Assembly: GCA_017450485.1 (NCBI GenBank)
Contig: JAFSTN010000018.1
Location: 1 to 64,000, forward strand
Length of the DNA stretch: 64,000 nucleotides
Direction of reading: 5' to 3'
Origin: Lachnospiraceae bacterium
GTDB taxonomy: Bacteria; Bacillota; Clostridia; Lachnospirales; Lachnospiraceae
Program-made: the position numbers and the translations under genes
Notes under the pieces: generated by a model
The model's database searches: none
Told to the model about the DNA's origin: nothing
Seen by the model: the letters and a program-made list of their open reading frames with translations, nothing else
Shown: positions 2,327 to 32,107 of the stretch, piece after piece
Position numbering within the stretch: position 1 is the first letter of the stretch
Layout of the letters: each line of letters starts with the position of its first letter

Positions 2327-3453
2327 TCAGACTTTCGTAGACCGGGTCTTCTCCAGATACATCCGTTCATCTGCCAGACGTACAACACCGTCTATATCCA
2401 TATCAGATGAGATCACAGTCTTATATACACCACAGCTGGCTGAAATGGAAAATCCCGCCTCAGCACTCTTTTCCTCCAGGATATGATTGATCCCGGATAT
2501 GATCAGATCACTGTCACATTCTCCGATGGCAAAAGCCAGCATTTCATCTCCACCGAAGCGGACACATATCGAACCCTCGGGACAGGACCTTTTAAGCGCA
2601 CCTGCCACAGCCGCGATGGCTTTGTCTCCCGCACTGTGTCCGAGAGTGTCATTGATCTTTTTGAGCTTGTTCAGATCAGCCATGATCACGCACAGATCTT
2701 TACCCTGCAACCCGGGATCATTTCGCATGTTTTCATAAGCCTCACGTGCGGCCAGACGGTTATAGAGTCCCGTAAGGGCATCCGTCTTGTACATCTCCCC
2801 GACCTTCGCGAGCATATATCTGGAGTACTGCATATTGATATATCCGCCCAGACCGGAATTAACGGTATCGGTCAGGCTCGAAGTCTTGGAGTACTCGGTG
2901 ATATCATAGCTGTCGAACTTGTAGCAGACATAACCGAATGGCTTATTCATATAATCAAGGGAATTGAAGATCAAAGGATATCCGCTCTCCATCCTTTTAT
3001 CGAATTCCGGAACCACGTCTGCCGGATAATACCGGCCATGAAATGAGGCCGTTTCACACCGTGATCCTCTATCACATGTCGGACCACTTTCTCAAAGCCG
3101 CCTGCGTAATCATAAGAGATGCTCACGCATCCGTCATATTCCCCGTCTACTACTATCACGGGAGTATTATGACCGGATGCCCGGGAAATGATCTTCTGCG
3201 ATACTTCATGGCTTTTGATCTTCTCATCCATGATCACTATGGCATCCACATGATCATACTGAATGTGATCAAAGACTGAGGTCTCTGCCGGAAGAGTATC
3301 CTCGCTCCAGTATATGTCGGAATTGATTGCATATATCCACAGCCATGCGTTTTCCAGTTTGAGCTCTTCATTGAGGATCTCTATGAAGCTCTGTATCTGC
3401 GGGTCAAATATCCTGGAAGTACACAGTGCTACGATTTTTTTATCTCGAATCAT
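2327..3453 (-). pseudogene. Broken paralogue of the binding-protein/GGDEF gene (internal deletion plus frameshift)
   Basis: Two overlapping frames hold pieces of one protein like the 635-residue neighbour. The first (3453 down to about 3040) encodes residues 1-138 of the binding-protein domain, ending at KRPHFMAG, which lines up with KRIFFIGG at 131-138 of the paralogue. It then leaves the family and stops at 2971. The second frame picks up at VVPEFDK, which matches IVPGYDKK at about residue 403 of the paralogue, and runs to 2327 with an intact GGDEF-type domain whose motif is GGDEM. About 265 codons are therefore missing and the join is out of frame. The junction lies near 3018-3036, within GCCGG and CCGGC half-sites. 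The GGDEF half could still be made only if translation restarts. A sequencing or assembly error cannot explain the missing 800 bases, though it could explain the frame change. Confidence 0.85.
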
Positions 3454-3520
3454 CGAACTGAAACCTCACTATTTGAACCGTTAGATTTTACCACATTCAA
3501 GGCTGTGTTGTCATCGTCTG

Positions 3521-3684
3521 TCAGCTTGGCTGTTTGCCGATATATGCGCTCTGCGGGAGTCTTGCTGATGATAAAGGAATCAAAAGGATGCCTGCTGCCG
3601 TCAGTCCACGAGTTCCTGATTTATATCATTGAATACGATGGTTGCTCCGGCTTCGGCATATGCGCATGCCGCGATCAGCGCAGC
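3521..3684 (-). pseudogene. kduD: kduD-type short-chain dehydrogenase remnant, three fragments
   Basis: Immediately after kduI, and overlapping its stop by about eight bases, the minus strand encodes three pieces of one short-chain dehydrogenase in family order. Positions 3684-3604 give IAACAYAEAGATIVFND and a following NQELVD, the first Rossmann beta-alpha-beta part, ending at a TGA. Positions 3602-3550 give DGSRHPFDSFIISKTPAE in another frame, a hallmark of KduD / gluconate 5-dehydrogenase. Positions 3545-3521 give AYIGKQPS and a stop in a third frame, the usual C-terminus. The start codon, the catalytic Ser-Tyr-Lys region and about 200 residues are absent. Known: KduD reduces 2,5-diketo-3-deoxygluconate to 2-keto-3-deoxygluconate after KduI. 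Inferred: this copy is dead, so the step must come from another gene. Confidence 0.85.
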
Positions 3685-4538
3685 ATATCAGTGGTAACGT
3701 TATCCATGTCGGAGAATACCTGATTCTCTCCGGCCATTCCCCAGATAAAAGTGTAATTGGATGAACCGCAGCCGCAATGTATGGACCAGCTCGGTGAGAT
3801 CACCGCCTGTTCATTGCGCATGACGATATGTCTGGTCTCATTGGGTTCTCCCATGTAATGCATGACAAAACCGTCCTGAGGAACTTCGAAATACAGATAT
3901 ACTTCCATGCGGCGGTCATGTGTATGACACGGCATCGAATTCCATACGCTTCCCGGCTCCAGATGTGTCATTCCCATAACCAGCTGACAGCTTTCAACCT
4001 GTCCGGGAAGGATATACTTGCAGATAGTACGAACATTGGACTCTTCAACCGATCCGAGATGAACCTTATTCTCATCTTTCACGATCACAACGCCATCTTC
4101 AGGGGTTCCTTCCTGTCTGATCAGTACGGTCGGGCAGGTTCTGTGTGCGGGTGTGGAATTGATATAGAACTTGGCAGGATTGGAAGCATCCTCACTCGCA
4201 AAGGAGATCTCTTTGGTTCCCATACCGAGATACATGGCTTCCCTGTGGGCTACCTTGTATGTACGTCCGTCCGCCGTGATGCATCCGTCTCCTCCGATGT
4301 TGATGACACCCATCTCACGTCTCTCAAGGAAATAATCTGCTCTGAGCTCATCCGCTGCATCCAGTTTCAGCTTCTTATTTACAGGCATGGCTCCGCCTGT
4401 GATGATCCTGTCCACATGACTGTAGACAAAGGTTATCTCATCCTTTCTGAAAACCTCGGGGATCAGGAATTCCTCCCTGAGCCTTTCGGTGTCATAGTAC
4501 TTAACATCCTTAGGTGATGCTGCTGTTCTTACTTCCAT
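3675..4538 (-). CDS. kduI: 5-dehydro-4-deoxy-D-glucuronate isomerase KduI
   Basis: KduI isomerises 5-keto-4-deoxyuronate, the product of unsaturated uronide hydrolysis, to 2,5-diketo-3-deoxygluconate in the cytoplasm. The protein has 287 residues, close to the usual 276-280. It carries the zinc-binding cupin signature: CHTHDRRMEVYLYF around residues 208-221 (two His and a Glu) and the later SIHCGCG with the third His. The start is supported by GGAGG ten bases upstream. It lies 27 bases after the DUF2264 gene and immediately precedes the kduD remnant. It receives substrate from the GH88 enzyme two genes upstream. All expected metal ligands are visible and the reading frame is intact to a normal C-terminus. 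Confidence 0.96.
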   Translation of the reverse strand: MEVRTAASPKDVKYYDTERLREEFLIPEVFRKDEITFVYSHVDRIITGGAMPVNKKLKLDAADELRADYFLERREMGVINIGGDGCITADGRTYKVAHREAMYLGMGTKEISFASEDASNPAKFYINSTPAHRTCPTVLIRQEGTPEDGVVIVKDENKVHLGSVEESNVRTICKYILPGQVESCQLVMGMTHLEPGSVWNSMPCHTHDRRMEVYLYFEVPQDGFVMHYMGEPNETRHIVMRNEQAVISPSWSIHCGCGSSNYTFIWGMAGENQVFSDMDNVTTDMLR

Positions 4539-4565
4539 TTCCTTGATTCCTCCTTTGAGTTAAAT

Positions 4566-6350
4566 CTATATGCTATACCAGTCACTCTTAACGACTGTCT
4601 TCAGTATGCTTCTGCCACGCGCGATCCGGTATTCCACGGCAGGGATCATGGTCTTGGGATACAGCAGATGTGTGTTGGGATCGGCTGTGTAGGAACGACC
4701 CGATACCTTATCTGACTGACCTTCAACAACTTCTCCGGTTACGCTGCACTCACAGAATCTGTTTGAAACGGTGCTCATGTTCTCCGAATCATCAATATGC
4801 ATATCTACATTGACCGTGTCGTCACGTCTGATGGCAAACCCGCTGTCAAGGGCAACACAATCCATATCACTGTCTATCTCATGCACACGGGTATGTCCGT
4901 CCGCGCCGGGTGTAACGGTAGTCTTCACTCTGATACCGGGATACGGACTCCATACCGAGATCACCGATGTGCCGGTTATCTCACGTTCCTCACATATCCT
5001 TCTGACATATATATATCCGTCGATCAGGAATGCCAGCATACAGTCAGGAGCGCATTCACACAGTTCATACTGTGAACGGCTCACGCTGACTCCGAACTTG
5101 GAGTCATACGCGAACTTACCGTATTTCTCCACTATATGTCCGTGACCTCTGGGGCTGTATACGCCCGGAGTATAAGCAGTTGTATGATTGCCGTAATGAT
5201 ATACGAGCATATCGGCATGCTTCATGGGACAGAGCGGATCCGTGGTGAATATGCTTCTGTCCATCTGTGCTTTGCACATATAGAACGGGTGATCCTCCGG
5301 AAGCAACAAAAAGGCAAACGTCTTCATCGCCCAATACGGCGAGCCCTGTGCATTATATCGCTCACTCATATGCAGATTCGCATAACCGTAACCGATAGTG
5401 AGCATCCCGTTACTGTCAAAGATGTCCCTCCCGAACCAGCTTCTTAAATGTTCCGTGATCAGTGCTTTCATAAAAGGCAGCGGAAACGGATTAAGACCGG
5501 CCATCAGACAGGCGGAAAAAAAACTCACCTGTGCAAAACGATATGTCAATGATCTGCCGAACGGGATCGCATCTCCGTCCTCATCAAACCAGTATACAAA
5601 CTGCCGCGCAAACTCCATGGCACGGTCCTTATATAATCTGCACCTGGCTTCGTCCTCATCCGTCATTACCGTCGAATAGACCAGACTGTAGAAATGAATC
5701 GCAAAAGAAATATAATAATCTTTCTGTCCTGAATCACCGTCACAATACCAGCCTTCACCGAGGTAAAAAGTTTCGAGGCCGTTTAAATAGTTCTCCAGCA
5801 TATCCGGACGGTATGGCATGCCCCTCTTCTTAAGTGCTATGTTTACGAGCACAGCAAAAAGTATCCAGTTGCATACCGGAAGTTCCATCTCATTGATGTG
5901 GTTCAGATAATCTGCCAGGTTCTTCTTTTCCCGTTCATCCAAAGGATCCCAGACAACCTGCGGAGCAAAGAGCATTCCGTAGGATATCGCAGCCATTTCA
6001 ACGAATCGCTGGTCAAAAGGACTGCAATCTCCCCAGTAACCCCGGGACCCGGGATCAGTGCCTTCACACAGTCCCCTGCGGTATATGCGTGCAAACTCCG
6101 AAGATACATCATCGAAGATCTTCTCTTCGTCTCGATGTGCCCACAGCGGTACCAATCCCCACAGCGGTCTGGAGAATGCTTCCATGTCAGCCGCGGATGC
6201 ATCGTAATGCGCATAAACCCTGTCGGTGTCGATCCCGGTGCAGAATGAATTATATCGGTCCTTCAGAGGTGTGAGCAGACCGAACAGAAGCCGTGCATAA
6301 TCTTCTTTGCTGCTCAGATGATCCAGATCCAGAAATTCAGTCCCCCTCAT
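4566..6350 (-). CDS. DUF2264 family protein
   Basis: This cytoplasmic protein of 594 residues matches the DUF2264 family in its opening (RPLWGLVPLWAH near 62-73), the GYWGDCSPFDQRFVEMA stretch and the CNWILFAV helix region. These are alpha/alpha-barrel features typical of polysaccharide-utilisation loci. It has no signal peptide or membrane segment. The reading frame is open to a TTG at 6380, but I choose ATG at 6350, two bases past the stop of the GH88 gene and preceded by GGGAGG. The second half (from about residue 380) is beta-rich, like the C-terminal sandwich of heparinase-type lyases. Its reaction is not established. From its neighbours it probably acts on an oligo-uronide or is a hydrolase/lyase of the same pathway. 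Confidence 0.88.
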   Translation of the reverse strand: MRGTEFLDLDHLSSKEDYARLLFGLLTPLKDRYNSFCTGIDTDRVYAHYDASAADMEAFSRPLWGLVPLWAHRDEEKIFDDVSSEFARIYRRGLCEGTDPGSRGYWGDCSPFDQRFVEMAAISYGMLFAPQVVWDPLDEREKKNLADYLNHINEMELPVCNWILFAVLVNIALKKRGMPYRPDMLENYLNGLETFYLGEGWYCDGDSGQKDYYISFAIHFYSLVYSTVMTDEDEARCRLYKDRAMEFARQFVYWFDEDGDAIPFGRSLTYRFAQVSFFSACLMAGLNPFPLPFMKALITEHLRSWFGRDIFDSNGMLTIGYGYANLHMSERYNAQGSPYWAMKTFAFLLLPEDHPFYMCKAQMDRSIFTTDPLCPMKHADMLVYHYGNHTTAYTPGVYSPRGHGHIVEKYGKFAYDSKFGVSVSRSQYELCECAPDCMLAFLIDGYIYVRRICEEREITGTSVISVWSPYPGIRVKTTVTPGADGHTRVHEIDSDMDCVALDSGFAIRRDDTVNVDMHIDDSENMSTVSNRFCECSVTGEVVEGQSDKVSGRSYTADPNTHLLYPKTMIPAVEYRIARGRSILKTVVKSDWYSI

Positions 6351-6351
6351 T

Positions 6352-7575
6352 CTACCAGTAAACCTCCCAGTCACAATCAAGGCGCGTCAGTGCTTCCATG
6401 TAGAAATAGTCTCCCCAGGAATTACACTCATCCACACCGTAATGGTTACATGTATTATAAGGCGAATGATTGGAGTATGTGCTGTGAAGGACCAGACCGT
6501 TTGATACCGAATGATCATGCACTGCACATATATCACTGACGGCTTTGATCAGCTTCTTGGCATACCCGCGGTACAGTTCAGCCATATCCTGCGGAAGATA
6601 CTTAGCCATCTCGAGCATACCGCAAGCGGCTATCGATGCTGCTGATGAATCACGCGGCTGCGGATCCTCACGGAGCTGCTCTTCTGTCCAGGAACTGAAC
6701 TCCAGATCCCAATACGGGATCAGGTTATCCGGCAGGTGCTCGAGGAAATAATCCGTCACACGGTAAAACAGCCTGATATACTCGGGATCGCGCATATACC
6801 GGTATGCAACAGCCATGCCGTATACTCCCCATGCCTGACCGCGAGCCCATGCGGAACCGTTACGGTACCCCTGACAGGTCTCTCCGTGATCAGGCAGCCC
6901 GGTCACAGGATCAAAGAAAAATGTATGCCAGGTGGAACCGTCTTCACAGATCACATTGGCTACAGCTGTATGAATATGCTTCAGCGCGATATCTTTGTAC
7001 TTCACATCTCCGGTCTCTTCGGTTGCCCAGAACAAAAGAGGAAGATTCAACAGGCAGTCTATGATCAGGCGGTAGTTCTCCTTTTGGTCCATGGGGCCCC
7101 ATGCCTGCAGAAAGCCGCCTACCGGCTGGAACCTGGTCAGCAGCTGATCGGCTGCGAGTATTGCAGCGGTTTTGGCATCTGTATTGCCGGTCAGTTTGTA
7201 TGCCGCCACGCACGACGGTGAATACAGAAATCCCATATCGTGATGATCTACGCTGATCTTCTGTCTGATCCTGTTCAGGAAACTCTGAACCTGCGCTTCT
7301 CCGGCATGAAGCAATCTGCCGGTATCTTCGGAGTCACCAGTCTGTCTGCGCTTTAAGTATTCGTAAGCCAGCCATATCTCACCGGTCCAGAATCCGTTCG
7401 TCCAGTCCGTATTCTCTGATGGTTCATAGAAATTACCGATACTGTACGCGGGCTGGAACTTTTCCGTAAAATCAGGCAGGATCCTCAGTATCTGTCTGCA
7501 CGCAAAATCAAGACCTGCCGTTATTCCGGCAGATCCGATCTCCTCATGGTTTTTCATTTTGGATATTTCAGTCAT
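6352..7575 (-). CDS. GH88 family unsaturated glucuronyl hydrolase
   Basis: The 407-residue protein removes the 4,5-unsaturated uronic acid from lyase-generated oligosaccharides by hydrating the double bond (known for GH88). Visible signatures are HHDMGFLYSPS near 110-120 (the first catalytic Asp), IIDCLLNLPLLFWAT near 170-184 (the second Asp), and ARGQAWGVYGMAVAYRY near 244-260. The C-terminus has the GDYFYMEALTRL helix. No signal peptide is seen, so it acts in the cytosol on imported oligomers. I start it at ATG 7575, because this start overlaps the upstream stop (ATGACTGA) and has GAGGAA just before it; a start 21 bases earlier is also open. Its product feeds KduI. GH105 is the alternative family, but the DHHDMGFLY motif favours GH88. 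Confidence 0.93.
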   Translation of the reverse strand: MTEISKMKNHEEIGSAGITAGLDFACRQILRILPDFTEKFQPAYSIGNFYEPSENTDWTNGFWTGEIWLAYEYLKRRQTGDSEDTGRLLHAGEAQVQSFLNRIRQKISVDHHDMGFLYSPSCVAAYKLTGNTDAKTAAILAADQLLTRFQPVGGFLQAWGPMDQKENYRLIIDCLLNLPLLFWATEETGDVKYKDIALKHIHTAVANVICEDGSTWHTFFFDPVTGLPDHGETCQGYRNGSAWARGQAWGVYGMAVAYRYMRDPEYIRLFYRVTDYFLEHLPDNLIPYWDLEFSSWTEEQLREDPQPRDSSAASIAACGMLEMAKYLPQDMAELYRGYAKKLIKAVSDICAVHDHSVSNGLVLHSTYSNHSPYNTCNHYGVDECNSWGDYFYMEALTRLDCDWEVYW

Positions 7576-8374
7576 TTTCTTCCTCATTCCGTACATACCC
7601 GTACACTTCTATCTGTGTGAGTGCCGGGAAAGGTGACGGTTCATCGGACTTTTTAAGGTTCTTTATGATCAGCTGGTCTATGACACGCTTCGTAAACCTG
7701 TACTCCTGAGCTGCAGCTGTCTTCTTAAGCGGCACCGTTTCACACGAGCCGTCCGAGAACTCAACCGTGAGCTCGGTCCAGTAATTGTCATGCGGAAAAT
7801 CCGACCTGGTATAGAACACTATCCTGTCGGTGATTATCTTCCTGCCGAACTCAAGCTTCATGGTGGCGTCTTCTCGTCTGTTGATGCCCCAGGATTCATA
7901 AGGCCATTCTCCGTGAGACAGATTGGCTCTGACTCCGTCTATCGCATTCTTGGCGGCAAATACGCTCTCACCTCTGGTCTCCACGTTTGCAGTCGCATGC
8001 GGATAGCACGGAACATCTTTATGCTGATCGGCAGGATTTAGAGCCAGGTTCCTGTATGCTTTTACCTCCTCTGGCTCTGCGACTTTCGCATACATATAGT
8101 GTCTGGTGCCGGAGAATACCTTCGGTGAACAGCTGATGCGGGCTTCGCCGAACGGTATGTCATACTTGACCGTATCCGTCACATATACGAAAGCTGCCTG
8201 CATCGCATCATCGACCTGCCAGTTGATGTGGATGTTCTTCTCTGATGTCTGAAGCTCTATCACATCGCCTTCCGCATAAGCTGCGGTATATACCAGATCA
8301 ACGAAATCCTCTCCGCTCGCCACTGCCAGTGTATTGCCGTCTTTATCAAGTACCTTTAATGATAATGTTGCCAT
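7568..8374 (-). CDS. Cytoplasmic beta-sandwich (F5/8C-like) protein of the uronide locus
   Basis: This is a 268-residue protein without signal peptide. Residues 1-105 look like one all-beta module. Residues 106-262 resemble a discoidin/F5-8C-type jelly roll: a NLALNPAD opening, FAAKNAIDG as the usual 'A.DG' turn, SWGINRREDATMKLEFGR, and a final strand ALTQIEVYGY. Known: such folds bind carbohydrates, usually outside cells. Here the lack of export signal and the placement between the permease and GH88 genes suggest binding or processing of the imported oligosaccharide in the cytosol. The call rests on fold-like patterns, not on a catalytic motif. The gene starts two bases after the permease stop region with AAAGGA before the ATG. 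Confidence 0.65.
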   Translation of the reverse strand: MATLSLKVLDKDGNTLAVASGEDFVDLVYTAAYAEGDVIELQTSEKNIHINWQVDDAMQAAFVYVTDTVKYDIPFGEARISCSPKVFSGTRHYMYAKVAEPEEVKAYRNLALNPADQHKDVPCYPHATANVETRGESVFAAKNAIDGVRANLSHGEWPYESWGINRREDATMKLEFGRKIITDRIVFYTRSDFPHDNYWTELTVEFSDGSCETVPLKKTAAAQEYRFTKRVIDQLIIKNLKKSDEPSPFPALTQIEVYGYVRNEEEND

Positions 8375-20923: not shown

Positions 20924-21853
20924 TCAATTCTTCTGATGTTTTCTGTACCAGACCGCCTTCCAGCTGATATTGCGCTGCATAGGAATACCTGACAGTTCCC
21001 TTATCCAGTCCGACTCCGAGCCTTCTTCCTCCATGGTCACAACTTCAATATCAGTTTTTTGCGCATCTGAGTTTATGTTCTTTGCGGCATACAGACACTC
21101 ATCAGCATGTGCCGGTTTCATACCTTTTTGGGCAATATGTGCAAGACCGGATCTCACGCCGTGGGAATATGTTGTCAAAAGCAACCGGTCGTAAATAAAA
21201 CCGCCATCGGAATCTCTAAGTGCAAGCAGCATATTCTGAATAGCAGCCAGGGTATATATCTGATTATCCTCACCCGGGCAGGTAAGCAGGAGCTGAGCAT
21301 GCGCCGTGCTGCCGCTGGCCGATCCCAACATAACCGAACGGATCATACCCGTCTTGTCAAATACGGCAGAACTCAGTTCCTGATGCATATGAGCCATATC
21401 CAGGCAGGTAAGCTCCACACCGGCATCCTCAAGGAACTCCCGGAGCCTGAGCCATAACGGAATACTGAATTCTCTCAGTCTGACAGTCTTTGCATCCTGT
21501 ACCTTTCGGCTCATCAACCTGTCAAATGTGGCATTATTAAGTATAAGTTTCTCATCTACCGATAAAACCGAAGAGCCTTCGCTGATCTCAAATCCCCTCG
21601 CCTTCAGAAATCCGCTCATTCCGTCTATGGATTCCAGATAATCGGCACAGAGTCTTGTAACCGGTCCTGTCCCAAGTACATATTCGGCCGCGGATAAAAG
21701 CCCCGTGGCTATACCCTGTCTGCGTTTTGCGGGCGGAACTGCTATCTGCAGAATATAAGCCTCTGTCCCCTCTATCCTCAGGGTTATGTATGCCCCCTCT
21801 CCGTCACTGATCCTTAATAGGCTTTCTTTATGTGCTGTTATTATAAAACTCAT
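20924..21853 (-). CDS. GNAT-fold acetyltransferase with long C-terminal region
   Basis: The protein has 309 residues from the ATG at 21853, five bases beyond the stop of the upstream GNAT gene; an earlier in-frame start lies inside that gene. Residues 30-105 contain a GNAT core: the strand AYILQIAVPP followed by the acetyl-CoA loop KRRQGIATGLLSAAEYVL (the Q/RxxGxG/A motif). Residues 120-309 are unassigned, with a possible second degenerate GNAT-like half. The substrate is unknown. It is the last gene of a tight minus-strand run behind the giant kinase-like gene and the other GNAT. Confidence 0.75.
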   Translation of the reverse strand: MSFIITAHKESLLRISDGEGAYITLRIEGTEAYILQIAVPPAKRRQGIATGLLSAAEYVLGTGPVTRLCADYLESIDGMSGFLKARGFEISEGSSVLSVDEKLILNNATFDRLMSRKVQDAKTVRLREFSIPLWLRLREFLEDAGVELTCLDMAHMHQELSSAVFDKTGMIRSVMLGSASGSTAHAQLLLTCPGEDNQIYTLAAIQNMLLALRDSDGGFIYDRLLLTTYSHGVRSGLAHIAQKGMKPAHADECLYAAKNINSDAQKTDIEVVTMEEEGSESDWIRELSGIPMQRNISWKAVWYRKHQKN

Positions 21854-21857
21854 ACGT

Positions 21858-22307
21858 CTATCTACCCGTAAACCTGAAAAACTGCTTCCCGTCATCTCCC
21901 AAAGAAATGAAACCGCACTCTGTTAAAAACATCCGCTGCTCCTCCTCAGACAGTTCCGGCTGAGGGGACGCTGCGACTCCGGTACCCGTTCCGGCCAGAA
22001 ATACATCCACATCTCCGGCAGATGCCAGTATGGAATCAGCCTTGCCTACCAGTCTCATCCCCACAGACCGTCTCCTGTATTCTTCAGGTACATACACATA
22101 TATAAGCCGGGCGTACACCTCCTTATTTACTGTCTGATCCACGAGAAACTGTACTACGCCTCTGATATCGGATGAATCGGACACAGCATCCACCGCCCCC
22201 AGAGTATAATACCCCTCTCTGTCCATATTCTCAGCAACTTTCGCCGGTAGGTCTTTAAGCAGAGGCTTAATATCATCTTTTGTCAGAGTATATATTTCTG
22301 TCTTCAT
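21858..22307 (-). CDS. GNAT-fold acetyltransferase
   Basis: The 149-residue protein has a GNAT core: ARLIYVYVPEEYRRRSVGMRLVGKADSIL around 66-94, with YRRRSVGMRL as the acetyl-CoA pyrophosphate loop. The C-terminal ECGFISLGDDGKQFFRF fits the last strands. It starts 38 bases after the giant gene and ends four bases before the next GNAT gene, so the three are likely co-transcribed, with only a weak six-bp hairpin at 22326-22343 between. Its substrate is unknown; modification of the neighbour-encoded protein is a guess. Confidence 0.8.
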   Translation of the reverse strand: MKTEIYTLTKDDIKPLLKDLPAKVAENMDREGYYTLGAVDAVSDSSDIRGVVQFLVDQTVNKEVYARLIYVYVPEEYRRRSVGMRLVGKADSILASAGDVDVFLAGTGTGVAASPQPELSEEEQRMFLTECGFISLGDDGKQFFRFTGR

Positions 22308-22345: not shown

Positions 22346-25300
22346 TTACTTCTTTTTCTTATTCTTTGTGTTCTTCGCAGCCTTCTTCTTTGCGGCTTCC
22401 TCTTCCTTCTTTTTCTTTTCCTCTTCCTTCCTTTTCTTTTCCTCGTCGGTTTTTTTCTTCTTGGCAGCCGCTTCTTCTGCCTTCTTCTTTCTGGCCTCCT
22501 CCTCTTTCTGCTTTTTGGCCTCCGCCTCTTCCTCTTTCTTTATCTTCTTTTCAAGTTCATCCTGCTCCTTGGCGTGCTGCCTGATCTCAACCCCCAATGC
22601 CTTATTGACTTTGGCGGCTGAACGTTTCCAGTGAGTACTTACCACATCTCCCATCACACCTACGAAATCAGGCAGATAGTCCTCATCTTTGAAATTATCC
22701 ATGTCGACGTTGGTCTTATATTTATCGGCTATGTCGGACAATACGTTGTGTGACTCTACCATATAACTGTACAGAAAATCATTCTCAGCCAGCTTCAGAT
22801 TCTTTTCGGCATTATCCAGAGCAGCCTTGTCTCCCGAGAGTTTTGCTTTGTCATACTCCTCTTCAGCCTTCCTGTATTTGACGTAAGTGTTTTTCACTGT
22901 CAGACTGGCAAGGATCCCACTGTTTTGACGTTCGAATTTCTCACGTTTTTCGGGATCTTTGGTTCCCTTAAGGTTCTTGCGGATCTCCATAGCCGCCGGC
23001 TTGCACAATACAGCGCCGATAGTGGTATTGTAAACGATGTCGGACACCTTCGTCCTGCGTGCCCGTTCCTTGTCTATATCTTTACTGACATCGGGAAGGG
23101 TTTCATATACGGAATCCAGCCCTTCAATGATTTCGGGGATATAGCTTTCGAGTACTACCATTATCTGCTCCAATGCAGCTTCATTATAGCTTTTCTGATC
23201 CATGGGACTAAGCGCACTGGAAGCCAGCTCCATCATGCGCTCCGTTTTAATAAATCCGCCGAAATCATCGGTTTCCTGACAGAGCATGATCATATCTCCG
23301 CCCATGTCTGCCATTTTCTGAGCCAGGTCAAGCGGCACCTTATTCCCGCTTTTGACCAGGCCTACGGCTTCATTGTATGCCTGCCTGATCTTCGCAGCCT
23401 TAGCTCGCGCATCCTTCGCCGTGATCTTCTCCTTAAATTTGAAATACTCGGGCATATATTCGCCTATAATGTTATCCAGCTCCTGTTTGGTACCGGCATT
23501 TGCCGCCTGAGTCATGAAAAGCCCGCTGTCACCCACGCTGTATCTTTCAGCGAACTGCTTTAAGCTCTCCTTGTTTCGGTTAAGAGGGTTTCTATGATAC
23601 ATATGAAGCTTTATAAGCGGATTGACGGAATCCTCATCCTCAGGTGCTATGTTAAGTGCGTCCATGGTATCCACCATACGGGTGGTCTTTATTGCACCGT
23701 CCTTAACCTCCTGCAGGGTGTTTTCCAGACGCTGCTGGCACTGTGAGAAATTCTGTATCTCCTTTGGCAGCTTGACTCCCAGAGACTGGGCAACGTTCAG
23801 CGCGATCAGTATCTTCTTGCCCGTATCCTCTGCAGTACCGAGCTTAAAGAGTTCATCAAGCTTGGTTATGAACTGTTTCTGCTGTACGGCAGTAAGGGGC
23901 GCATATCCCACCTTGTCCCTGGAGTCCTTTTCATCCTCAGCCGAAAGAACCAGCAGATTGTTAAATGCCTCCACGAAATGCTTTGAGCTGCTGATCACCG
24001 CAGCCGAAAGCATTGACAGGATCTGGTTGACCTTGGAATCCTTCAGTATTACGGCATTACCGTAATCCAGTATTGTGGTGTTTTCGCCGTCCACCATGAT
24101 ATTGCCGGCATGCATGTCGCCATGATGGAAGTTCGGGTCATCACCGAGTCCTATGGCCTTACTTCCAAACATCGCCTGCTCCAGCCATACATAGGCGAGC
24201 TTTGCGCACAGTTTGCCGCTCGTTATGGAAGTCCGGGATGATTCCGTCAGTTTTTTTCTCAGCTTCCAGAACTGAACCACGTTGTCTGAATTAAGCACCA
24301 TAGGTTCCCTGACCGAAGTGTCCGTATTCCTAAATGTCTTGATCGCTGTTTTTACGTCGGATTTGGCCTGGGTTATGACCTTATCAACCGTAGCTCCCTC
24401 TGCCATATCCATAACGAGGTAATGCTTCTTGGGTGCGAAATTTTCATTGATATGGACTGATTTCACATGATAGTTATCGGAACCGTCCTTCTTCTTGTTA
24501 TATTTATTCACATAGTTTTTCTGTCCCAGCTTGGCATTCTCCGCTTCATTGGTGAAATCAAACTCCTTCTCGATCTCGGAGAACTGTGCCAGGAAGCCGG
24601 ATTCCGTCACCTTGACATCATGCTTCACCAGCTTCGAACCGTATTTCTTTTCGTACGCCTTTTTCTGTTCATCCGTCATATCGGCAAACATGGCTGACAT
24701 TCGAACGAATTGCAGGTCCTTTTTCATATTGTCCTGCGCATCGGGACGAAGTATCTTGACCACCACAAATTGGGACTTGATCTTCGGACCGGTGATCTTG
24801 CACTTAAAGGTCTCCGCTACGGAAGCAGCACCCAAAGACTGTCTGTCGGAAATAGACGTAATGGCACCGCCGGAGTCCTTTATCATCTCCTTAAATACCT
24901 TGTCGACGTACTTGGGATCGATATGCGCCAGAGATGACTTGACGACTCCCAGAGCTCCCGACATCTCGGGGATAAGCATACGCTCGGGTACTCCCTGCAT
25001 CATCTTCTGCATCAGCGGTCCCGCGCCCTTCATGGTGGAGGCGAAGTATTCGCACCCCTTCTCCTTATCCGTCACATTGGCACTGTTCTTCTTCAGATCT
25101 CTGATGACATGTGACAGCATCCTGCGCCTGTCCTCTTTGGATGCGTTCTTATAGTATCCGGATATCAGAAGCTGGTTAAACCTGCCCTGACCCTTCTTGC
25201 TGTCATAGAGCAGGGACTCCTGCATATCGTTTAGCATGCCCCTTTCTTTTTGGGTCTGCTCACTTGATTTCTTCTGGAGCTCCCGTCTCTCCTTCGTGTT

Positions 25301-28300
25301 TTTGGCAGCTGCTATGCGGGCTTTCTTTTCCTCGGAATCTATCAGATTTATGAGCTCCTTCATATCGTCACTCATGAGTTCCGTTACCTCAGGGAGAGCT
25401 TCACCGTCCTCTCCCCTGTTATATACGTCGGCGGTGGCATCACTCATTACAGGCAGCATCTCCTTCTCGAAGAGCTCCATGTTAGCATCCACCTTCCCTG
25501 CATAATCCTTCAGTGCCTTGCTTACAGCTTCTGATTTTAGGAGCTTCCTGACATTCTCCTCGTTTATCTCTTTACTCTTTGATGTGCCAATAGCCTCGGA
25601 CAACGCATTTATCACAGGCATAAGGGAATTCTCACAGGCTTCAAAGAATGCTCTTTCTCCCCGGGTAGTGCCTGCTTTAAGCTCCGCAAAGACACTTGAG
25701 ACGATCAGACGCTTATCGGAGCCCTGCTTTAGAAGTGCCGCAATATCCTTCGCATGATCCGACAGCACGCTGCCGATCTTTATATCCAGCGCGCTGTCAA
25801 GCTCAGCCGCTCCGGTAAGAACGGTAATATCACCCAGAATGCTTAAGAAGCTTACGGCTTGGTCGGAGAACGTACGCTCCTCGTCCGTCTCCACCTTAGC
25901 GGCGATCTTTTTACGCATGGATGCGGCTTTCTTATCAAGCCCCCTGTGGATGCTTTCGTTGATAAGCAGGAATCTCTCGTATTCCGGAGTCATCTCCTTT
26001 CCCTTGCTTCTCTCTTCTATGGACTTTTTCTTCAAAGCCTCCTTTTCTTCCGCGGCTGTCTGCCATGCGGTCTTCTTCCAGTCGTGCTGCTCGGCTCCTA
26101 TCATATAGGTGGGTTTCTTCTCTGTTTCCGTGTATTCCGGCAACTCACCGGGTTTTATATCCAGAGTCTTCTGAAGAGCGTCAAACAGCTTATCGGACAT
26201 TCCCATGTTCGACAGTTCAAGGATGGCTTTGGCCATATCGTTTTGTTCATAAGGATCGGTGGTTCCCTTCAATCCCTCTATTATGCCCACATTTCTGTAG
26301 ATGTAATATATGCTGTCGGCACTCAGTCCCGCAAAATCATCAAAGGTCAAGTCCTCAAGTCCGGGATGCTTCTTCAGATACAGGATGCTGTACTCAGCCA
26401 TGGACCTTAAGTCCTCAAATCCCGCTTCGTCTCCCAGATCGCGGCTCAGCCATACCCTCTTGTGACTGGATCTCAGTCTGTCAAGATAATAATCCGCATC
26501 AAAGAGCTTGGATCCTTCCGTTACGATATCAGCGGTCTCCCTGGCTAACTCCTCCGGAGCGTTTACGTTGAAATACATGGACTCAAGTACATCACGAAGC
26601 TCTATGGTAGCATAACCCTCCAAAGCTCTCGCATCGATTCCGGATAGCTTAACTATCGTCTCAAGTATTCCTGCGCGGTCATTTTTCTTAAGTGCATTAT
26701 CTATGGCCTTGATCCTGCCATGGATCTCATGGGCCAGCTTCAGACACTTATCCGCCGCTGTTTTGGACTTTTTCTTGTCTATGATGTCATGTACGTCAAA
26801 AGCATATTCGGAGAGTAAGGCAATGGGGATCACGCGGAAATAATCCTCCTCCTTGCCTGTGTACTCCGACAGTATCTCGCGGCATACGGCTTCATGAGAC
26901 CTTGCCTGTTCTTCGGACAGAGTGTCAAAATCCCCGTCATTTTCAGGCTGTGTGCCCGTGTAACGGGATGTCTGCTCGGCGTATTTGCTGAGAGCTTTCA
27001 GATCCATATTCTTGTAATCGTTATATTTGACATCGCCATCTTCCCTGCTTCTGTTCATGCAGATAAGAAGGGTGTTGTAATCGTATGCAAGCAGCTTGTC
27101 CTGAGCAGTCATTTTATCGCCCTTTGCAAGAAGATTCTTTACACGCTCAAGCAGGGGCGTATCATCCTTGGTATCGGTGTAAGAATCATCCAGAGCCTCT
27201 ATCTGTTTAGCCAGTTCTTCCTTTGTTCCGCTTACGGATTGATTGTCCAATGCGTATTTTACGAACTTAGCCAGTTCATCGGTGGGCGTAAACTCAATGA
27301 TGGAGCTTTCCACGCCCGTATAGGTGATCAGCTTGTCTATCATCCTTTCACGGAGAGCGTAGGCGTCAGCCTCAGGTACATCTCCCTTAGCCAGCTTCTC
27401 ATATCCCTCCAGCAGGTATGTCAGGAGTATACGCTCCTCTGCCCGGGAGTTCTCGGCTTCTTCATACTTCTTTAGCCACTCGGCGCTTTTGGCGGTGATG
27501 ACGGGTTGTTTTTCTTTTATCTCTTTATGTATAGCCTCCCTCTTCATCCGCTTAGCGACACGCTCACGGCTCTCCTTCTCAAGCGCTGCGTCGATGTCGC
27601 GCGCTTTTTCTCCTGCCCTGCTGCTGATATCGGCCTGCTTATTCTTTAATTCGCTCCTGAATACCGCTTTTTTCTTCTCTTCCTCGAGACGCTTTTCCTC
27701 CTCAAGCTGCTGCTTTATGTGCTCACGGCTCTTCTTCTCAAGCTCTGCGTCAATATTGCGCGCTTTTTCTCCTGCCCTGCTGCTGATATCGGCCTGCTTA
27801 TTCTTTAATTCGTTCCTGAATGCCGCTTTTTTATCCTCTTCCTCCTTCTGCTCGGGCTTATTCTCTTCTGCCTTCTGCTCGGGCTCCTTCTCTATTACAT
27901 TCTGCTCGGGCTCTTTCTCTATTACATCCTGCTCCGGTTTATTCTCATCTGCTTTCTGTTCGGATTTCTTTTCTTCTGACTTATTTTCTTCGGGTACAAG
28001 TATAAGCGGAATATCCGGCTCGCCCTGAACTTCATTCCTGATTAGGTTTTCACTCTGCTCCTCATTCACTCTATTGATCAGATCCAGACTGGCAAGCTCG
28101 ATATTATCGGAAATGAGCCGCTTATCTATCTTCTCTGACGCCGCTTCGATACGCTCCTTACCGACGGGAGACTTGGCATTTACTTTGCTGCGATACCATT
28201 TAAGAAGCTTTACGGGATCGGTTTTTCTGGTGAATTCGCCTCCGGTCCTTCCCGATACCAGTCTCTTGTTCTTGCCGGTCAGACTTTTGATAAACTTCGT

Positions 28301-29746
28301 AAAGGCAGCTCCCACACTCTTTTTGCCTTCTATTCCCGCTATGCTCTTATCATTTTTGAGGGCATTAAGCTTGTCCGGAGTATTGTAAGCGTTTGTATCC
28401 TCCTGCAAGAGAAGAGCGTAGTACGGTGACGTCATCATCTCCAGCCTGCCTGTATACTCCTTCTTTATCTCCTTGAAGAGAAGGATCTTTGCATTGACCT
28501 CCTTAAGCAGATTCGAGCTTAGCACACCGGATATTCCGTTGTTCTGCTTCTGGTAAAGCAGCTCATTAAGCAGGGCATCCGCGTGTTCAGCCACACGCAG
28601 CTTATTGTACAGATTCATGAAATACTGCTGCTTATTCTGTGCGGATTTGCTGCGATTTAGGAAGTCCTCCGGCTCCTTGAACTTGAAATCGGCAGGATCC
28701 CAGCTGAGTATATCCGCAAGTATAGCCTCGATCATGTGGCACTTTGCGTCAGTACGCCCCTGCTTATTATCATCCGACGCAGACAGTCTGATGAGCATGT
28801 TGGAACCTATCTGCTTACGGTATTCCTCCTCGGTGACATTTTCTCCATCAAAATCCGTCATCCCCGCATACTTACCGTTCAGGTAACCCAAGTTCATATA
28901 TGAAGCCACGATGTTTTTTACGGCGTCATCATAGCCTGCATTTCTTTTGTTCTCATGCACCACATATTTGCTTTTGATCTCATCCAGATGCTTAAAGGCG
29001 CTCTTTTTGCTGTCCACCAGTTGTTGCTTAAGTATTCTGGCCTGCCTTACATCCTTTATCTTCCTCCGGAAGGCTTTCCTTCTGTCACCCATATCAGCCG
29101 CAAAAGGTTCTCCGCTCTTTACCGTAAGCTTCCCTGCCAGGCTAATCTCCACATTCAGCTTCTCATCCGAGATACGCTCATCTTCCACCAGATACTCAAG
29201 GTTTCTCTCTGTCTGAATTCCATGGGCTTTCACATAGGAATCCACCTTTTTAACTATGTCGCTGCACACCTGCTTTCTGGCAGGGGCATTGCCCTTTTTC
29301 TCCAGAAGATAGTTAAACGCGCTCTCTCTGACGGCGAGAAGCATGTTAATCCTGGCCCCGGGATCCTGTTCTGCCCGGTACAGCTTGATGGCATCACGCA
29401 CCTTATAGTACAGCGCAGCTCTTCCGGTATCTGCCAATGCGGTATTCAGTAATAACTCAATTTCGCCCGGTATTGCCACGGGTTCTTCATTCCGGATGTT
29501 TTGCTCCTCATCCTCTTCGTTCATATGCATGGGCATATTCTTTTCGATGTTTTTTCTGACATCTTTTATGCTTTTGGTTTTTTTATTCTTCGATTTATCA
29601 CCCGAGAGAAAATCCCGATCCGACAGGTCTGCATTGGCTCCTAAACCTGAATGGATGTTCATTCCCAGCTCTTTATTGCTTTGGGTATTAATCTCTTTAT
29701 TTTTTACGTTAAGTTCAGACAACGTTTGCTTTCTTGATTCTTTCAT
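22346..29746 (-). CDS. Giant (about 2,466-residue) cytoplasmic protein with ABC1/UbiB-like kinase domain
   Basis: Residues 1-100 are low-complexity and charged, and no signal peptide or membrane helix is seen. Residues 590-640 are a Glu/Lys/Pro repeat (EPEQ units). Residues 640-730 hold two copies of a 53-residue helical repeat. Long helical, partly coiled-coil stretches fill 730-1550. An ABC1/UbiB-like atypical kinase covers about 1590-2000: KGAGPLMQK in place of KxGQ, the Ala-rich loop SLGAASVAETFKC near 1640, the lysine in VVVKILRPD near 1662, EFDFTNEAEN near 1735, MDMAEG near 1781, catalytic HGDMHAGN near 1877 and metal-binding LDYGN near 1894. All core residues are kept, so activity is plausible. 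The last 70 residues are almost only Lys, Glu and Ala. ATG 29746 has GGAGG six bases upstream. I do not recognise the whole protein; UbiB family members are usually 400-600 residues. Confidence 0.85.
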   Translation of the reverse strand: MKESRKQTLSELNVKNKEINTQSNKELGMNIHSGLGANADLSDRDFLSGDKSKNKKTKSIKDVRKNIEKNMPMHMNEEDEEQNIRNEEPVAIPGEIELLLNTALADTGRAALYYKVRDAIKLYRAEQDPGARINMLLAVRESAFNYLLEKKGNAPARKQVCSDIVKKVDSYVKAHGIQTERNLEYLVEDERISDEKLNVEISLAGKLTVKSGEPFAADMGDRRKAFRRKIKDVRQARILKQQLVDSKKSAFKHLDEIKSKYVVHENKRNAGYDDAVKNIVASYMNLGYLNGKYAGMTDFDGENVTEEEYRKQIGSNMLIRLSASDDNKQGRTDAKCHMIEAILADILSWDPADFKFKEPEDFLNRSKSAQNKQQYFMNLYNKLRVAEHADALLNELLYQKQNNGISGVLSSNLLKEVNAKILLFKEIKKEYTGRLEMMTSPYYALLLQEDTNAYNTPDKLNALKNDKSIAGIEGKKSVGAAFTKFIKSLTGKNKRLVSGRTGGEFTRKTDPVKLLKWYRSKVNAKSPVGKERIEAASEKIDKRLISDNIELASLDLINRVNEEQSENLIRNEVQGEPDIPLILVPEENKSEEKKSEQKADENKPEQDVIEKEPEQNVIEKEPEQKAEENKPEQKEEEDKKAAFRNELKNKQADISSRAGEKARNIDAELEKKSREHIKQQLEEEKRLEEEKKKAVFRSELKNKQADISSRAGEKARDIDAALEKESRERVAKRMKREAIHKEIKEKQPVITAKSAEWLKKYEEAENSRAEERILLTYLLEGYEKLAKGDVPEADAYALRERMIDKLITYTGVESSIIEFTPTDELAKFVKYALDNQSVSGTKEELAKQIEALDDSYTDTKDDTPLLERVKNLLAKGDKMTAQDKLLAYDYNTLLICMNRSREDGDVKYNDYKNMDLKALSKYAEQTSRYTGTQPENDGDFDTLSEEQARSHEAVCREILSEYTGKEEDYFRVIPIALLSEYAFDVHDIIDKKKSKTAADKCLKLAHEIHGRIKAIDNALKKNDRAGILETIVKLSGIDARALEGYATIELRDVLESMYFNVNAPEELARETADIVTEGSKLFDADYYLDRLRSSHKRVWLSRDLGDEAGFEDLRSMAEYSILYLKKHPGLEDLTFDDFAGLSADSIYYIYRNVGIIEGLKGTTDPYEQNDMAKAILELSNMGMSDKLFDALQKTLDIKPGELPEYTETEKKPTYMIGAEQHDWKKTAWQTAAEEKEALKKKSIEERSKGKEMTPEYERFLLINESIHRGLDKKAASMRKKIAAKVETDEERTFSDQAVSFLSILGDITVLTGAAELDSALDIKIGSVLSDHAKDIAALLKQGSDKRLIVSSVFAELKAGTTRGERAFFEACENSLMPVINALSEAIGTSKSKEINEENVRKLLKSEAVSKALKDYAGKVDANMELFEKEMLPVMSDATADVYNRGEDGEALPEVTELMSDDMKELINLIDSEEKKARIAAAKNTKERRELQKKSSEQTQKERGMLNDMQESLLYDSKKGQGRFNQLLISGYYKNASKEDRRRMLSHVIRDLKKNSANVTDKEKGCEYFASTMKGAGPLMQKMMQGVPERMLIPEMSGALGVVKSSLAHIDPKYVDKVFKEMIKDSGGAITSISDRQSLGAASVAETFKCKITGPKIKSQFVVVKILRPDAQDNMKKDLQFVRMSAMFADMTDEQKKAYEKKYGSKLVKHDVKVTESGFLAQFSEIEKEFDFTNEAENAKLGQKNYVNKYNKKKDGSDNYHVKSVHINENFAPKKHYLVMDMAEGATVDKVITQAKSDVKTAIKTFRNTDTSVREPMVLNSDNVVQFWKLRKKLTESSRTSITSGKLCAKLAYVWLEQAMFGSKAIGLGDDPNFHHGDMHAGNIMVDGENTTILDYGNAVILKDSKVNQILSMLSAAVISSSKHFVEAFNNLLVLSAEDEKDSRDKVGYAPLTAVQQKQFITKLDELFKLGTAEDTGKKILIALNVAQSLGVKLPKEIQNFSQCQQRLENTLQEVKDGAIKTTRMVDTMDALNIAPEDEDSVNPLIKLHMYHRNPLNRNKESLKQFAERYSVGDSGLFMTQAANAGTKQELDNIIGEYMPEYFKFKEKITAKDARAKAAKIRQAYNEAVGLVKSGNKVPLDLAQKMADMGGDMIMLCQETDDFGGFIKTERMMELASSALSPMDQKSYNEAALEQIMVVLESYIPEIIEGLDSVYETLPDVSKDIDKERARRTKVSDIVYNTTIGAVLCKPAAMEIRKNLKGTKDPEKREKFERQNSGILASLTVKNTYVKYRKAEEEYDKAKLSGDKAALDNAEKNLKLAENDFLYSYMVESHNVLSDIADKYKTNVDMDNFKDEDYLPDFVGVMGDVVSTHWKRSAAKVNKALGVEIRQHAKEQDELEKKIKKEEEAEAKKQKEEEARKKKAEEAAAKKKKTDEEKKRKEEEKKKKEEEAAKKKAAKNTKNKKKK
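27562..27831 (-). repeat. Two-copy 159-base tandem repeat inside the giant gene
   Basis: About 110 bases at 27562-27672 recur with few changes at 27721-27831, a period of 159 bases or 53 codons. Each copy encodes FR-ELKNKQADISSRAGEKAR followed by a D-A-LEK stretch, with a Lys/Glu-rich helical filler between. The high DNA identity suggests a recent duplication, or gene conversion, within the coding frame. Confidence 0.88.
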
Positions 29747-29760
29747 CACATACCTCCGTT

Positions 29761-29952
29761 TTATCTTGACATTTTAAATGCCGTAAGGGCACTTTGCCTG
29801 ATCACAAAAAGTCCAAGTATCTCATCTTTCCCCGGCGTATCAAAAGCAGCAACATAAATGCAGCTTTCCTGCCTTATATCTGTAAAAAAATCAGGGATTT
29901 TAGGGAAAGCAGTAATCTCATGTCCCTTTGGTTGTGTAATGAAATAATCCAA
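29761..29952 (-). CDS. Small ORF upstream of the giant gene, function unknown
   Basis: A 63-codon frame with a TTG start and GGGGGAAA upstream ends 14 bases before the ATG of the giant gene, spacing that would suit a translationally linked leader gene. The product is mixed alpha/beta-like with a central hydrophobic strand (CIYVAAFDTP) and ILGLFVIRQSALTAF near the end. I do not recognise it. It could be a real small partner protein, a remnant of a longer gene, or chance. Confidence 0.35.
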   Translation of the reverse strand: MDYFITQPKGHEITAFPKIPDFFTDIRQESCIYVAAFDTPGKDEILGLFVIRQSALTAFKMSR

Positions 29953-30373: not shown

Positions 30374-31519
30374 TCAGATAATGAAACGGTATCTTCCTTT
30401 CCCGGCACCGGTTATCTTTTCTGTCAGATGTAATGAATACATCTTCCCCAGCAATGTAGATGCCGGCTTTTCTGTGATCTTTAATACATCAATAACATCT
30501 GCACGGCCAAATACTTTTTCAACACCAAAAGCAGCATAAAGCTTTACAATATTATCCTTTGTCCGAGATGAAATTTCTTTAGAATTTAAAGTCTCCAAAA
30601 TGTCGTTTTTATTCTCAATGTGCTGTTCAATGTGTCGTTTAATGTGTTGTTTGCCATCGGAATGTGTTGTTTCTTCCCACCTGATATGCATATACCGGTT
30701 TTTCAATTCATTGTTTTCGCCCATAAGCAGATTTCTAAGGAATGTCTCAAGAAAAGACATATCCTCATAAATGCCATTCTTCACATCACGGTAATTCGCT
30801 CTTACAAGTGAATTTCTGAAATACCAAGCATTTTTTGCAAATACATCATTAGTAACATTAAATCCCATTGACCGCAGATATTTTATAAAAAATACAGCAG
30901 TTGTCCGGGTATTGCCTTCACAAAAAATATGTATCTGCCACAGTCGCGAAACAAATCTTGCAAGGTGACTTATAATCTCACTCATCGTCAGATCCGAATA
31001 AGAAAACTCCTGCTCTGTCTTAAAATCGTAATCCAACGTCTCACGGAGTTCCAATGCTCCGCCATACATAACCGATGCCCCATCAAGTACCCACTCATCT
31101 TTTCTGATATTATAGTCTCTGATCTTACCCGCATGAGAAAAAACACCGACAAAAAGTCTTCGATGAATGGAGATGTACTGTGCCGGCGAAAAGACGAAAG
31201 AACTATCCGATAAAATCTCAGCTATGTGAACAGAAACCTTGTCTGCTTCCTCAGTTCCTTCAGGAATATGATTAGCAGACTCTTTGTAGTAGCTGTCTAT
31301 CCTTTTTTTAGCCTCGTCAATGGAGATATTACCGTCGATGTTTTCCTTCGCCGTATTAAGCAGATATTCAGAAGGACGCAGTTTATCGACATCTTGCAAA
31401 CCTACTGCAGTCTGCCATGCATATGCCTTATCTACCTTATCGGGTTCACCAAGCCGTATATATTCCTCGAAGGGATCTTTTTTCAATTCATCAAATTGCT
31501 CATTCCTTTTGTCTTCCAC
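30374..31519 (-). CDS. Fic family protein (predicted AMP transferase) with C-terminal winged helix
   Basis: Fic enzymes transfer AMP or related groups to protein hydroxyls. The 381-residue product has the Fic signature HIFCEGNTRTTAVFF near residues 228-242, a common variant of HxFxEGNGRxxR, and the upstream flap strand VMYGGALELRETLDYDF. Residues 320-381 look like a winged helix (VIDVLKITEKPASTLLGKMYSL) that may bind DNA. I use GTG 31519 with AGAGGTG just upstream. The frame stays open into the tmRNA gene, but that part only translates the tRNA-like end. The gene is more AT-rich than its neighbours and sits directly behind ssrA, both signs of acquisition. No N-terminal inhibitory motif of the (S/T)xxxE(G/N) type was clearly identified. 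Confidence 0.9.
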   Translation of the reverse strand: MEDKRNEQFDELKKDPFEEYIRLGEPDKVDKAYAWQTAVGLQDVDKLRPSEYLLNTAKENIDGNISIDEAKKRIDSYYKESANHIPEGTEEADKVSVHIAEILSDSSFVFSPAQYISIHRRLFVGVFSHAGKIRDYNIRKDEWVLDGASVMYGGALELRETLDYDFKTEQEFSYSDLTMSEIISHLARFVSRLWQIHIFCEGNTRTTAVFFIKYLRSMGFNVTNDVFAKNAWYFRNSLVRANYRDVKNGIYEDMSFLETFLRNLLMGENNELKNRYMHIRWEETTHSDGKQHIKRHIEQHIENKNDILETLNSKEISSRTKDNIVKLYAAFGVEKVFGRADVIDVLKITEKPASTLLGKMYSLHLTEKITGAGKGRYRFII

Positions 31520-31529
31520 GTAACACCTC

Positions 31530-31660
31530 TGACTATTTAATTTGTCTCTTACGGAACAAACACTTGATTTGCTGATATCAAGACCATATGACTTCTTAAC
31601 CCATTTCCTGACACCTCCGATCGATAGCGAATATGTATTCTGCCATTTTTCGGACTCCGC
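31530..31660 (-). other. Coding-like remnant between ssrA and Fic
   Basis: In the same frame as Fic but upstream of its start, the minus strand reads SIGGVRKWVKKSYGLDISKS and then a VRDK end. This resembles the short 'WV..YG..VS...I..VK' module found at the C-terminus of some Lachnospiraceae RlmD-type methyltransferases. It has no start of its own. It may be a gene remnant, an N-terminal extension of Fic, or chance. Resemblance is from memory and weak. Confidence 0.3.
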
Positions 31661-31746
31661 TTCAAATGGGTTATGAAAGCCACAAATTAAGTAAATCCGT
31701 GTTTTGAACACCTTAATGGACAGGTGCTCGTCAATACACGGTATAG

Positions 31747-32107
31747 TGGACCAGGCGGGAGTCGAACCCGCGTCCAAAAACCAATCCCCGTCTCTTCTAC
31801 ACGCTTATTCCGTCTTCATACCTGGAGAATAAGATAACGGACAAACTTTGCATCCCCGGGTTCCCGATAGTCTTAGTACCGTTTCTCGTGAACTTGCTTT
31901 ACGGTAAGCAGCCGCTGCTTTTGAACCCACACGAGTATAGCGGCGTTATCGTGAGGGCTTATCACCCGAAGGTGAGGCAGGCTTTACGCTGCTGCCAGTG
32001 CGTAATCGTTATCAGCGATTATTCTTCGGTGTCGGATTTACGAGGTGTCCACCATCCTCGGCGTGCTTCTTCCGCTTCATGATCCCTGTCGAAACCTTGA
32101 CTGGCCC
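31747..32107 (-). ncRNA. ssrA: Transfer-messenger RNA
   Basis: The tRNA-like ends pair: 5' GGGCCAG with 3' CTGGTCC, followed by the discriminator A. CCA is not encoded. The T arm GGGTTCGACTCCC and the 5' GGTTTCGACAGGGAT are diagnostic of tmRNA. The tag reading frame at 32016-31984 starts with GCT and encodes ADNDYALAAA then TAA, to which the charged alanine is added first. The length of 361 bases is normal. smpB lies 44 bases upstream on the same strand. tmRNA with SmpB frees stalled ribosomes and tags the broken peptide. Confidence 0.96.

Follow-up and report, generated by a model that had tools for sequence, protein, structure and literature searches.

The DNA analysed here, referred to as the window, consists of positions 1 to 64,000 of contig JAFSTN010000018.1 from the Lachnospiraceae bacterium assembly GCA_017450485.1. 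Our subject is a giant gene on its minus strand, predicted to encode an ABC1/UbiB-like kinase protein, together with the two small GNAT-like genes that follow it. The source genome (G000) spans 2.62 Mb in 49 contigs and is 91% complete, and the kinase gene lies on its contig C3. A first-pass annotation had described one uninterrupted frame of about 2,466 residues, and this was borne out: a single open frame occupies 22346-29749 if read from a GTG codon and 22346-29746 if read from the next ATG, the latter giving 2,466 amino acids. The ATG is the better start, since a GGAGG ribosome-binding site read in the sequence (29753-29757, minus strand) precedes it by 6 nt and since the orthologues in two other loci (L005 and L006) begin at the same position. 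Residue numbers below count the GTG as residue 1. With 12.4% Lys and 10.3% Glu the chain is as Lys/Glu-rich as had been described, and its highest 19-residue hydropathy mean of 1.48 indicates no clear membrane helix, again as described. The long hydrophilic chain looks helical, a character judged by eye only.

Several parts can be distinguished along the minus strand. The protein opens with a polar Lys/Asn/Gln-rich leader of ~45 residues (29615-29746, mean hydropathy -1.14), which is a candidate packaging signal. Domain A (residues 84-172; 29234-29500), delimited by BLAST segments, precedes domain B here and follows it in the clade typified by locus L007. Domain B (residues 333-472; 28334-28753) carries an SPYYALL motif and is a module common to kinase and non-kinase giants. 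The conserved kinase core, defined by the core alignment and the profile matches, covers residues 1500-2020 (23690-25252). In the charged linker of the protein a 124-nt segment is duplicated with 93% identity and a 27-nt repeat forms an array (27562-27844, 27819-27980); these are signs of recent linker growth.

Kinase core and active site

The ABC1/UbiB-like kinase domain postulated in the first-pass annotation was upheld by profile comparison. The Pfam model PF03109 (ABC1) matches the giant with E = 1.7e-14 and 54 bits against a cut-off of 22.9, the best stretch being residues 1604-1796, with a second stretch at profile positions 187-242. Over the same region the NCBIfam UbiB models score 57.4 and 31.3 bits, their equivalog cut-offs standing far higher at 487.55 and 667, and a PDB sequence search with the core gave weak kinase and ABC1 matches only. 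By these sequence comparisons the giant is classed as a broad-sense member of the ABC1/UbiB kinase family, not as a UbiB orthologue. Two more places in G000 have ABC1 matches over the cut-off, both weak and partial in their coverage of the model (27.2 and 25.8 bits); the former, in locus L002, looks by eye like an ordinary Ser/Thr kinase.

Comparison with the homologous cores located the active-site elements in the giant: the Ala-rich loop LGAAS (residues 1639-1643; 24821-24835), the beta-3 lysine K1665 (24755-24757), E1729, the catalytic loop HGDMHAGN (1876-1883; 24101-24124) and LDYGN (1894-1898; 24056-24070) with the metal-binding Asp at the DFG position. To these we add QKMMQ at residues 1581-1585, which the first-pass annotation did not list and which lies within the element GAGPLMQKMMQGVP (24986-25027), at the place where the KxGQ of UbiB is expected. 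The Ala-rich loop, the beta-3 Lys, the alphaC Glu and the Lys and Gln of the KxGQ position (K1582 and Q1585) are invariant in 23/23 cores; the Gly of that motif is not kept, the giant having KMMQ. The catalytic Asp, the Asn and the metal-binding Asp are invariant in all 22 cores that reach them. Conservation of the Ala-rich loop, beta-3 Lys, HGDMHAGN and LDYGN had been claimed beforehand, and these elements proved to be present in the giant and invariant in 22/22 or 23/23 sequences. The fact that the active site is invariant across the cores argues for a working enzyme, and we predict that the kinase core is likely to be one. In the core alignment the giant is 32-82% identical to the ten other rows; conservation at this level, together with matches in several genera, rules out a chance resemblance.

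The likeness to ABC1/UbiB proteins (COQ8/ADCK, PF03109) thus comprises the Ala-rich loop, beta-3 Lys, alphaC Glu, HGDxHxGN, D[YF]GN and the Lys and Gln of KxGQ. UbiB/COQ8 proteins are ~400-600 residues long and are often membrane-anchored. The giant differs in being four to five times longer, in having KMMQ for KxGQ and no clear membrane helix, in its GNAT companions and giant-protein modules, and in belonging to a genome without UbiA.

A rare family of kinase giants

The homologues were examined for length, neighbours and spread, as the first-pass annotation had proposed: they are mostly ~2,000-2,500 residues long, have GNAT neighbours and belong to Lachnospiraceae. A search of genome contigs returned ten loci with homologues, titled Lachnospiraceae (8) or Eubacterium (2). 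The length range refers to frames not cut by a contig end; shorter calls were 1,600 residues in L049 and 1,068 in L047. Among 397 sampled Lachnospiraceae genomes the kinase core was found in 10 (E <= 1e-20), four of which have two or three copies, and in a class-wide sample it was found in 2 of 391 genomes, both Lachnospiraceae. The kinase giants are therefore a rare Lachnospiraceae family with matches in several genera. No relatives were found in the viral contigs searched, and a phage-borne gene was rejected on this ground. In these comparisons loci L006, L010/L038, L011/L039 and L014/L042, being equal in length, were taken as the same contigs as in genomes G002, G181, G372 and G328.

The core tree was calculated from 22 cores, omitting L013, whose sequence is truncated. 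Six loci (L007, L008, L009, L012, L038 and L041) form one fully supported group in it, and two of them, L012 and L038, agree at 97% identity along most of the sequence. In this clade two giants without a convincing Pfam domain (L008:3-9572 and L010:2610-7814) are encoded directly upstream of the kinase; these two share ~119 C-terminal residues. Elsewhere in the family, two kinase loci of one genome have a GH3-family gene nearby (L014:13179-14933 by Pfam, and L043:3222-4994, grouped with it by BLAST). A suspected likeness of L006:12781-14688 to the HopA1 family was not supported by Pfam or NCBIfam matches.

GNAT companion genes

Two companion genes follow the giant on the same strand. Companion 1 (21858-22307, 149 residues) is GNAT-like and starts 38 nt past the stop of the giant. 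Companion 2 (20924-21895, 323 residues) overlaps it and combines a GNAT-like first half, containing the acyl-CoA motif RRQGIA, with a second half that is conserved in the companion family. Both score below the Pfam GNAT cut-off; relatives of both elsewhere pass it, and PDB sequence searches with the companions returned ordinary GNAT structures. At 12 of 22 loci GNAT-related genes are found no more than 2 kb from the kinase, and many of these genes have the second conserved half. A 63-residue open reading frame (ORF) directly before the giant (29761-29952, minus strand) looks GNAT-like by eye and had no GNAT support by profile or BLAST.

We built a profile, A3, from the GNAT companion genes; it has 4 matches in G000, 19 in G001 and 20 in G004, weak single-domain GNATs included. 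GNAT-type genes also adjoin other giants of 600-3,500 residues in the genus of the window. Four such GNAT-linked giants occur in G000 (C31:9794-19186, and on C48 at 47437, 71903 and 77192), and a fifth giant, C48:62890, has no GNAT gene directly beside it. Within selected stretches, fetched for GNAT, kinase or sheath and contractile injection system matches or adjoining these, 34 of 48 GNAT-type entries (47 genes, one entered twice) lie within 110 nt of a same-strand ORF of at least 600 residues, compared with 84 of the 322 remaining entries of comparable size. An R/QxxGxG/A acyl-CoA motif occurs in the first 125 residues of 34/48 GNAT-type entries, so that the companions may be a mixture of enzymes and degenerate forms.

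Polar leaders and shared modules

The first 45 residues of 19 non-kinase giants of the genus have a median hydropathy of -1.08, the corresponding value for 219 control proteins, each 250 residues or longer, being 0.04. Of these 19 giants, 18 lack a strong hydrophobic stretch.

Modules are exchanged between kinase and non-kinase giants. Residues 39-336 of the kinase giant in L045 match the non-kinase giant G004:C51:137619 (3e-43), residues 245-734 of that in L042 match G001:C4:88096 (8e-21), and residues 557-696 of that in L040 match the calpain giant G001:C4:83090 (2.5e-20), the last match being the protease domain. The L040 protein (880-8055) carries in a single chain a Peptidase_C2 domain at residues 569-819 (54.2 bits against a cut-off of 23.8, covering the profile from position 41 on) and an ABC1 domain at 1655-1932 (62.4 bits). 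A profile made from kinase giants only, over residues ~340-466 of the window giant, finds several GNAT-linked giants, with a best single-domain value of 1.3e-11. After one iteration the domain B profile matched 13 kinase giants and 8 distinct non-kinase giants, one of the latter from G000, and no other member of the 539-entry set; it was trained on 6 of these 8, which the kinase-only profile had picked up first, and on 9 of these 13, and the fresh finds were G004:C51:137619 and G001:C4:125357 together with L012, L041, L042 and L045. For domain A the profile search picked up no non-kinase giant at E < 0.01, and the N-terminal and middle parts of the window giant, domain B excepted, had no convincing match in them.

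Five giants share ~2,000-2,400 N-terminal residues and then diverge, as polymorphic toxins do. Calpain-type (Peptidase_C2) domains occur in two non-kinase giants near GNAT-type genes (L021:1013-4951 at 9e-12 and L082:5090-9226 at 1.4e-27). Of 12 giants in the Pfam scan, 10 had no match at E <= 0.01. One G000 giant (C48:77192-83503, equal to L138:192-6503) matches Ntox11 weakly, at 22.8 bits under a cut-off of 25. The giants resemble polymorphic toxins in their mix-and-match modules and varying catalytic parts and in this one sub-threshold match; they differ in that no Rhs, LXG or WXG family turned up for those scanned, with immunity genes outside the search.

Co-occurrence with a contractile injection system

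The related genome G001 has a contractile injection system (CIS) and, on one contig with it, a row of giants and GNAT genes whose end is ~13 kb short of a sheath gene. Among the proteins encoded in this interval and beyond it are Pvc16_N, DUF4280, sheath, tube, gp25, spike OB and Baseplate_J proteins and an AAA ATPase. All 28 genes of G001:C4:136-172 kb match contig C21 of G000 in the same order at 37-95% identity. The genome of the window thus has a CIS gene cluster with an AAA ATPase gene.

A sheath gene is present in 7/7 genomes of the genus of the window and in 44 of the 397 sampled family genomes. It was found in 8/10 kinase-positive genomes and 36/387 others (p = 4.7e-7), and in 5/7 kinase-positive genomes when the genus of the window was left aside (p = 1.7e-4). 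Of the genomes with tandem GNAT genes (E <= 1e-15), 12/13 have a sheath, compared with 32/384 others (p = 9e-12), and 6/7 do when the six genomes of the sample from which A3 rows had been taken were removed (p = 4e-6). The one tandem-GNAT genome without a sheath, G045, is 60% complete. All 12 genomes with both features are among the 17 with a sheath of 64% or higher identity to the query; in the other 27 sheath genomes no GNAT reaches the tandem-GNAT threshold. These p values come from raw Fisher tests without correction for kinship. A GNAT-type gene lies within 2 kb of the kinase at 12/16 loci in CIS-positive genomes and at 0/6 in CIS-negative ones (p = 0.003), a count made by hand in which several loci share one genome.

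Discussion

We consider it most likely, though with considerable room for error, that the giant is a modular effector of the CIS. It is a candidate whose delivery we infer from its GNAT companions, the co-occurrence with CIS genes, the modules common to other giants and the calpain domain in one homologue. The first-pass annotation had offered an effector, a scaffold or a defence kinase; the same four lines of evidence favour the effector, whereas the scaffold drew no specific support.

The domain, its conserved active site, the companions, the co-occurrence and the module sharing were computed; loading, delivery, activity and target are what the following scheme would add. The polar N-terminal leader and the shared modules would mark the giant for loading. 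The GNAT companion may be its dedicated chaperone or adaptor, or may acylate it, before loading, and the AAA ATPase of the CIS would thread it into or onto the particle. After delivery by the syringe, the kinase domain would use ATP in the recipient to modify a protein, a lipid or a small molecule. KxGQ is said to keep COQ8 quiet, and a similar restraint in the producer may come from the KxxQ element. Since sister giants and one kinase giant have calpain-type domains, the targets may be eukaryotic, for example gut protozoa. Having an acyltransferase-like gene and a giant in one operon is reminiscent of the toxin-activating acyltransferases of RTX toxins (HlyC type), a parallel in possible mode of action only; the companions here differ in being GNATs, often in tandem, and any acylation by them is hypothetical.

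Among known machines, extracellular CIS (eCIS; PVC, Afp, MAC) are the closest comparison, in that G000 has homologues of their sheath, tube, spike, baseplate, Pvc16_N and AAA ATPase. In the portions of the texts available, a polar N terminus is a trait used to predict eCIS payloads (PMC11297309) and N-terminal regions of PVC payloads act as packaging domains (PMC10097599), and the polar N termini of the giants are in line with these described packaging regions. The candidates here differ in their length of 600-3,500 residues, their GNAT partners, their partial scattering over the genome and, for the window giant, the lack of DUF4157. A further difference is that eCIS are described as depleted from mammalian microbiomes in the available part of PMC8213781. 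A literature search, covering mostly non-subscription papers, found none on a giant ABC1 effector or, judged by title, on Lachnospiraceae CIS effectors; in the accessible part of PMC10266427 'contractile injection' occurs solely in a reference title.

Several observations weigh against a CIS effector. The main one is the group of six kinase loci (L007, L008, L009, L012, L038 and L041) whose genomes have no sheath match and near which neither inspection of the loci nor the profile found a companion-type GNAT gene. Under midpoint rooting, with the root not established, the group is nested inside the tree, which would suggest one loss. In G000 the kinase on contig C3 lies outside the CIS operon on C21, and of nine CIS-positive kinase genomes with contig numbers only G328 has both on one contig, ~50 kb apart; it is the other giants of G001 that share a contig with the CIS. 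Conversely, 36/44 CIS genomes have no kinase. Neither DUF4157 nor another known eCIS leader was among the Pfam matches of the giant. Related genomes are not independent samples, which weakens the co-occurrence. Finally, size is a real difficulty for delivery: at an estimated ~280 kDa the giant is far larger than proven payloads, the available text of PMC10097599 reporting delivery of one of 170 kDa.

Other explanations have to account for the same data. The giant might stay inside the producer and control assembly or firing of the CIS, or programmed lysis; its cytosolic-looking composition would suit this, as would genes among the giants that by eye resemble SpoIIE phosphatases, histidine kinases and response regulators (L088, L089, L100 and L084). 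We nevertheless regard such a regulator as unlikely, given that just 8/44 CIS genomes have the kinase, that modules are shared with other giants and that one member carries a calpain domain; the two or three divergent kinase copies in several genomes also fit a repertoire better than a regulator. Still less probable is an anti-phage defence kinase in a small defence island. The neighbouring Fic/DOC protein (30374-31777, minus strand) does match the PADLOC defence candidate PDC-S72 strongly (567 bits), which keeps part of the earlier defence proposal alive, and it lies next to a tmRNA gene (31746-32107), presumably a usual integration site. Yet the PADLOC models matched neither the giant nor its two GNATs, viral contigs held no kin, and no Fic gene was noticed beside other kinase loci, though no Fic-directed search was made. 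The called Fic frame begins inside the 3' end of the tmRNA, so that its true start is later. A tmRNA-anchored island was considered and dropped, the direct-repeat search having shown no flanking repeat tied to the tmRNA end.

The long hydrophilic Lys/Glu-rich chain could also be read as a structural CIS part or another giant scaffold, such as an alternative tape-measure or anchoring protein, in which the kinase is a fold relic. This seems very unlikely to us, since strict invariance of the active-site residues, as seen in all 22 or 23 members that extend over them, is not what a relic would show, and the giant is absent from most CIS genomes. We give least credence to a quinone- or isoprenoid-linked UbiB-type protein grown large by accessory regions, even though the giant belongs to PF03109 and has KxxQ. 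A profile search did not find UbiA (PF01040) in the 91% complete genome G000; of 11 kinase-bearing genomes just 2 had it over the cut-off and one more had a match below it, in a search whose control found 14/14. The absence of UbiA together with the low equivalog scores makes a quinone role unlikely, and the companions and modules point elsewhere; the earlier suggestion of a job other than quinone metabolism is probably right.

Extending the preferred reading of the window giant as a CIS effector, we tentatively raise a broader possibility, which we hold with less than even confidence. Lachnospiraceae may have a whole class of giant injected effectors of 600-3,500 residues, many with their own tandem-GNAT escort and domain-B-like modules. 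Within this class ABC1/UbiB kinases might have been converted to weapons or manipulators for delivery via a contractile syringe, once fused to a calpain-type protease, and perhaps injected into gut protozoa.

ABC1/UbiB kinases are thought of as housekeeping enzymes of lipid and quinone metabolism. If the effector reading is true, they would join the enzymes used as injected effectors, and the CIS of gut Lachnospiraceae would have a large repertoire of giant cargo. The tandem-GNAT gene beside a giant would then be a simple genomic handle for finding more of them, and both the loading of 100-400 kDa proteins and the targets of UbiB-type kinases outside quinone biology would become testable.
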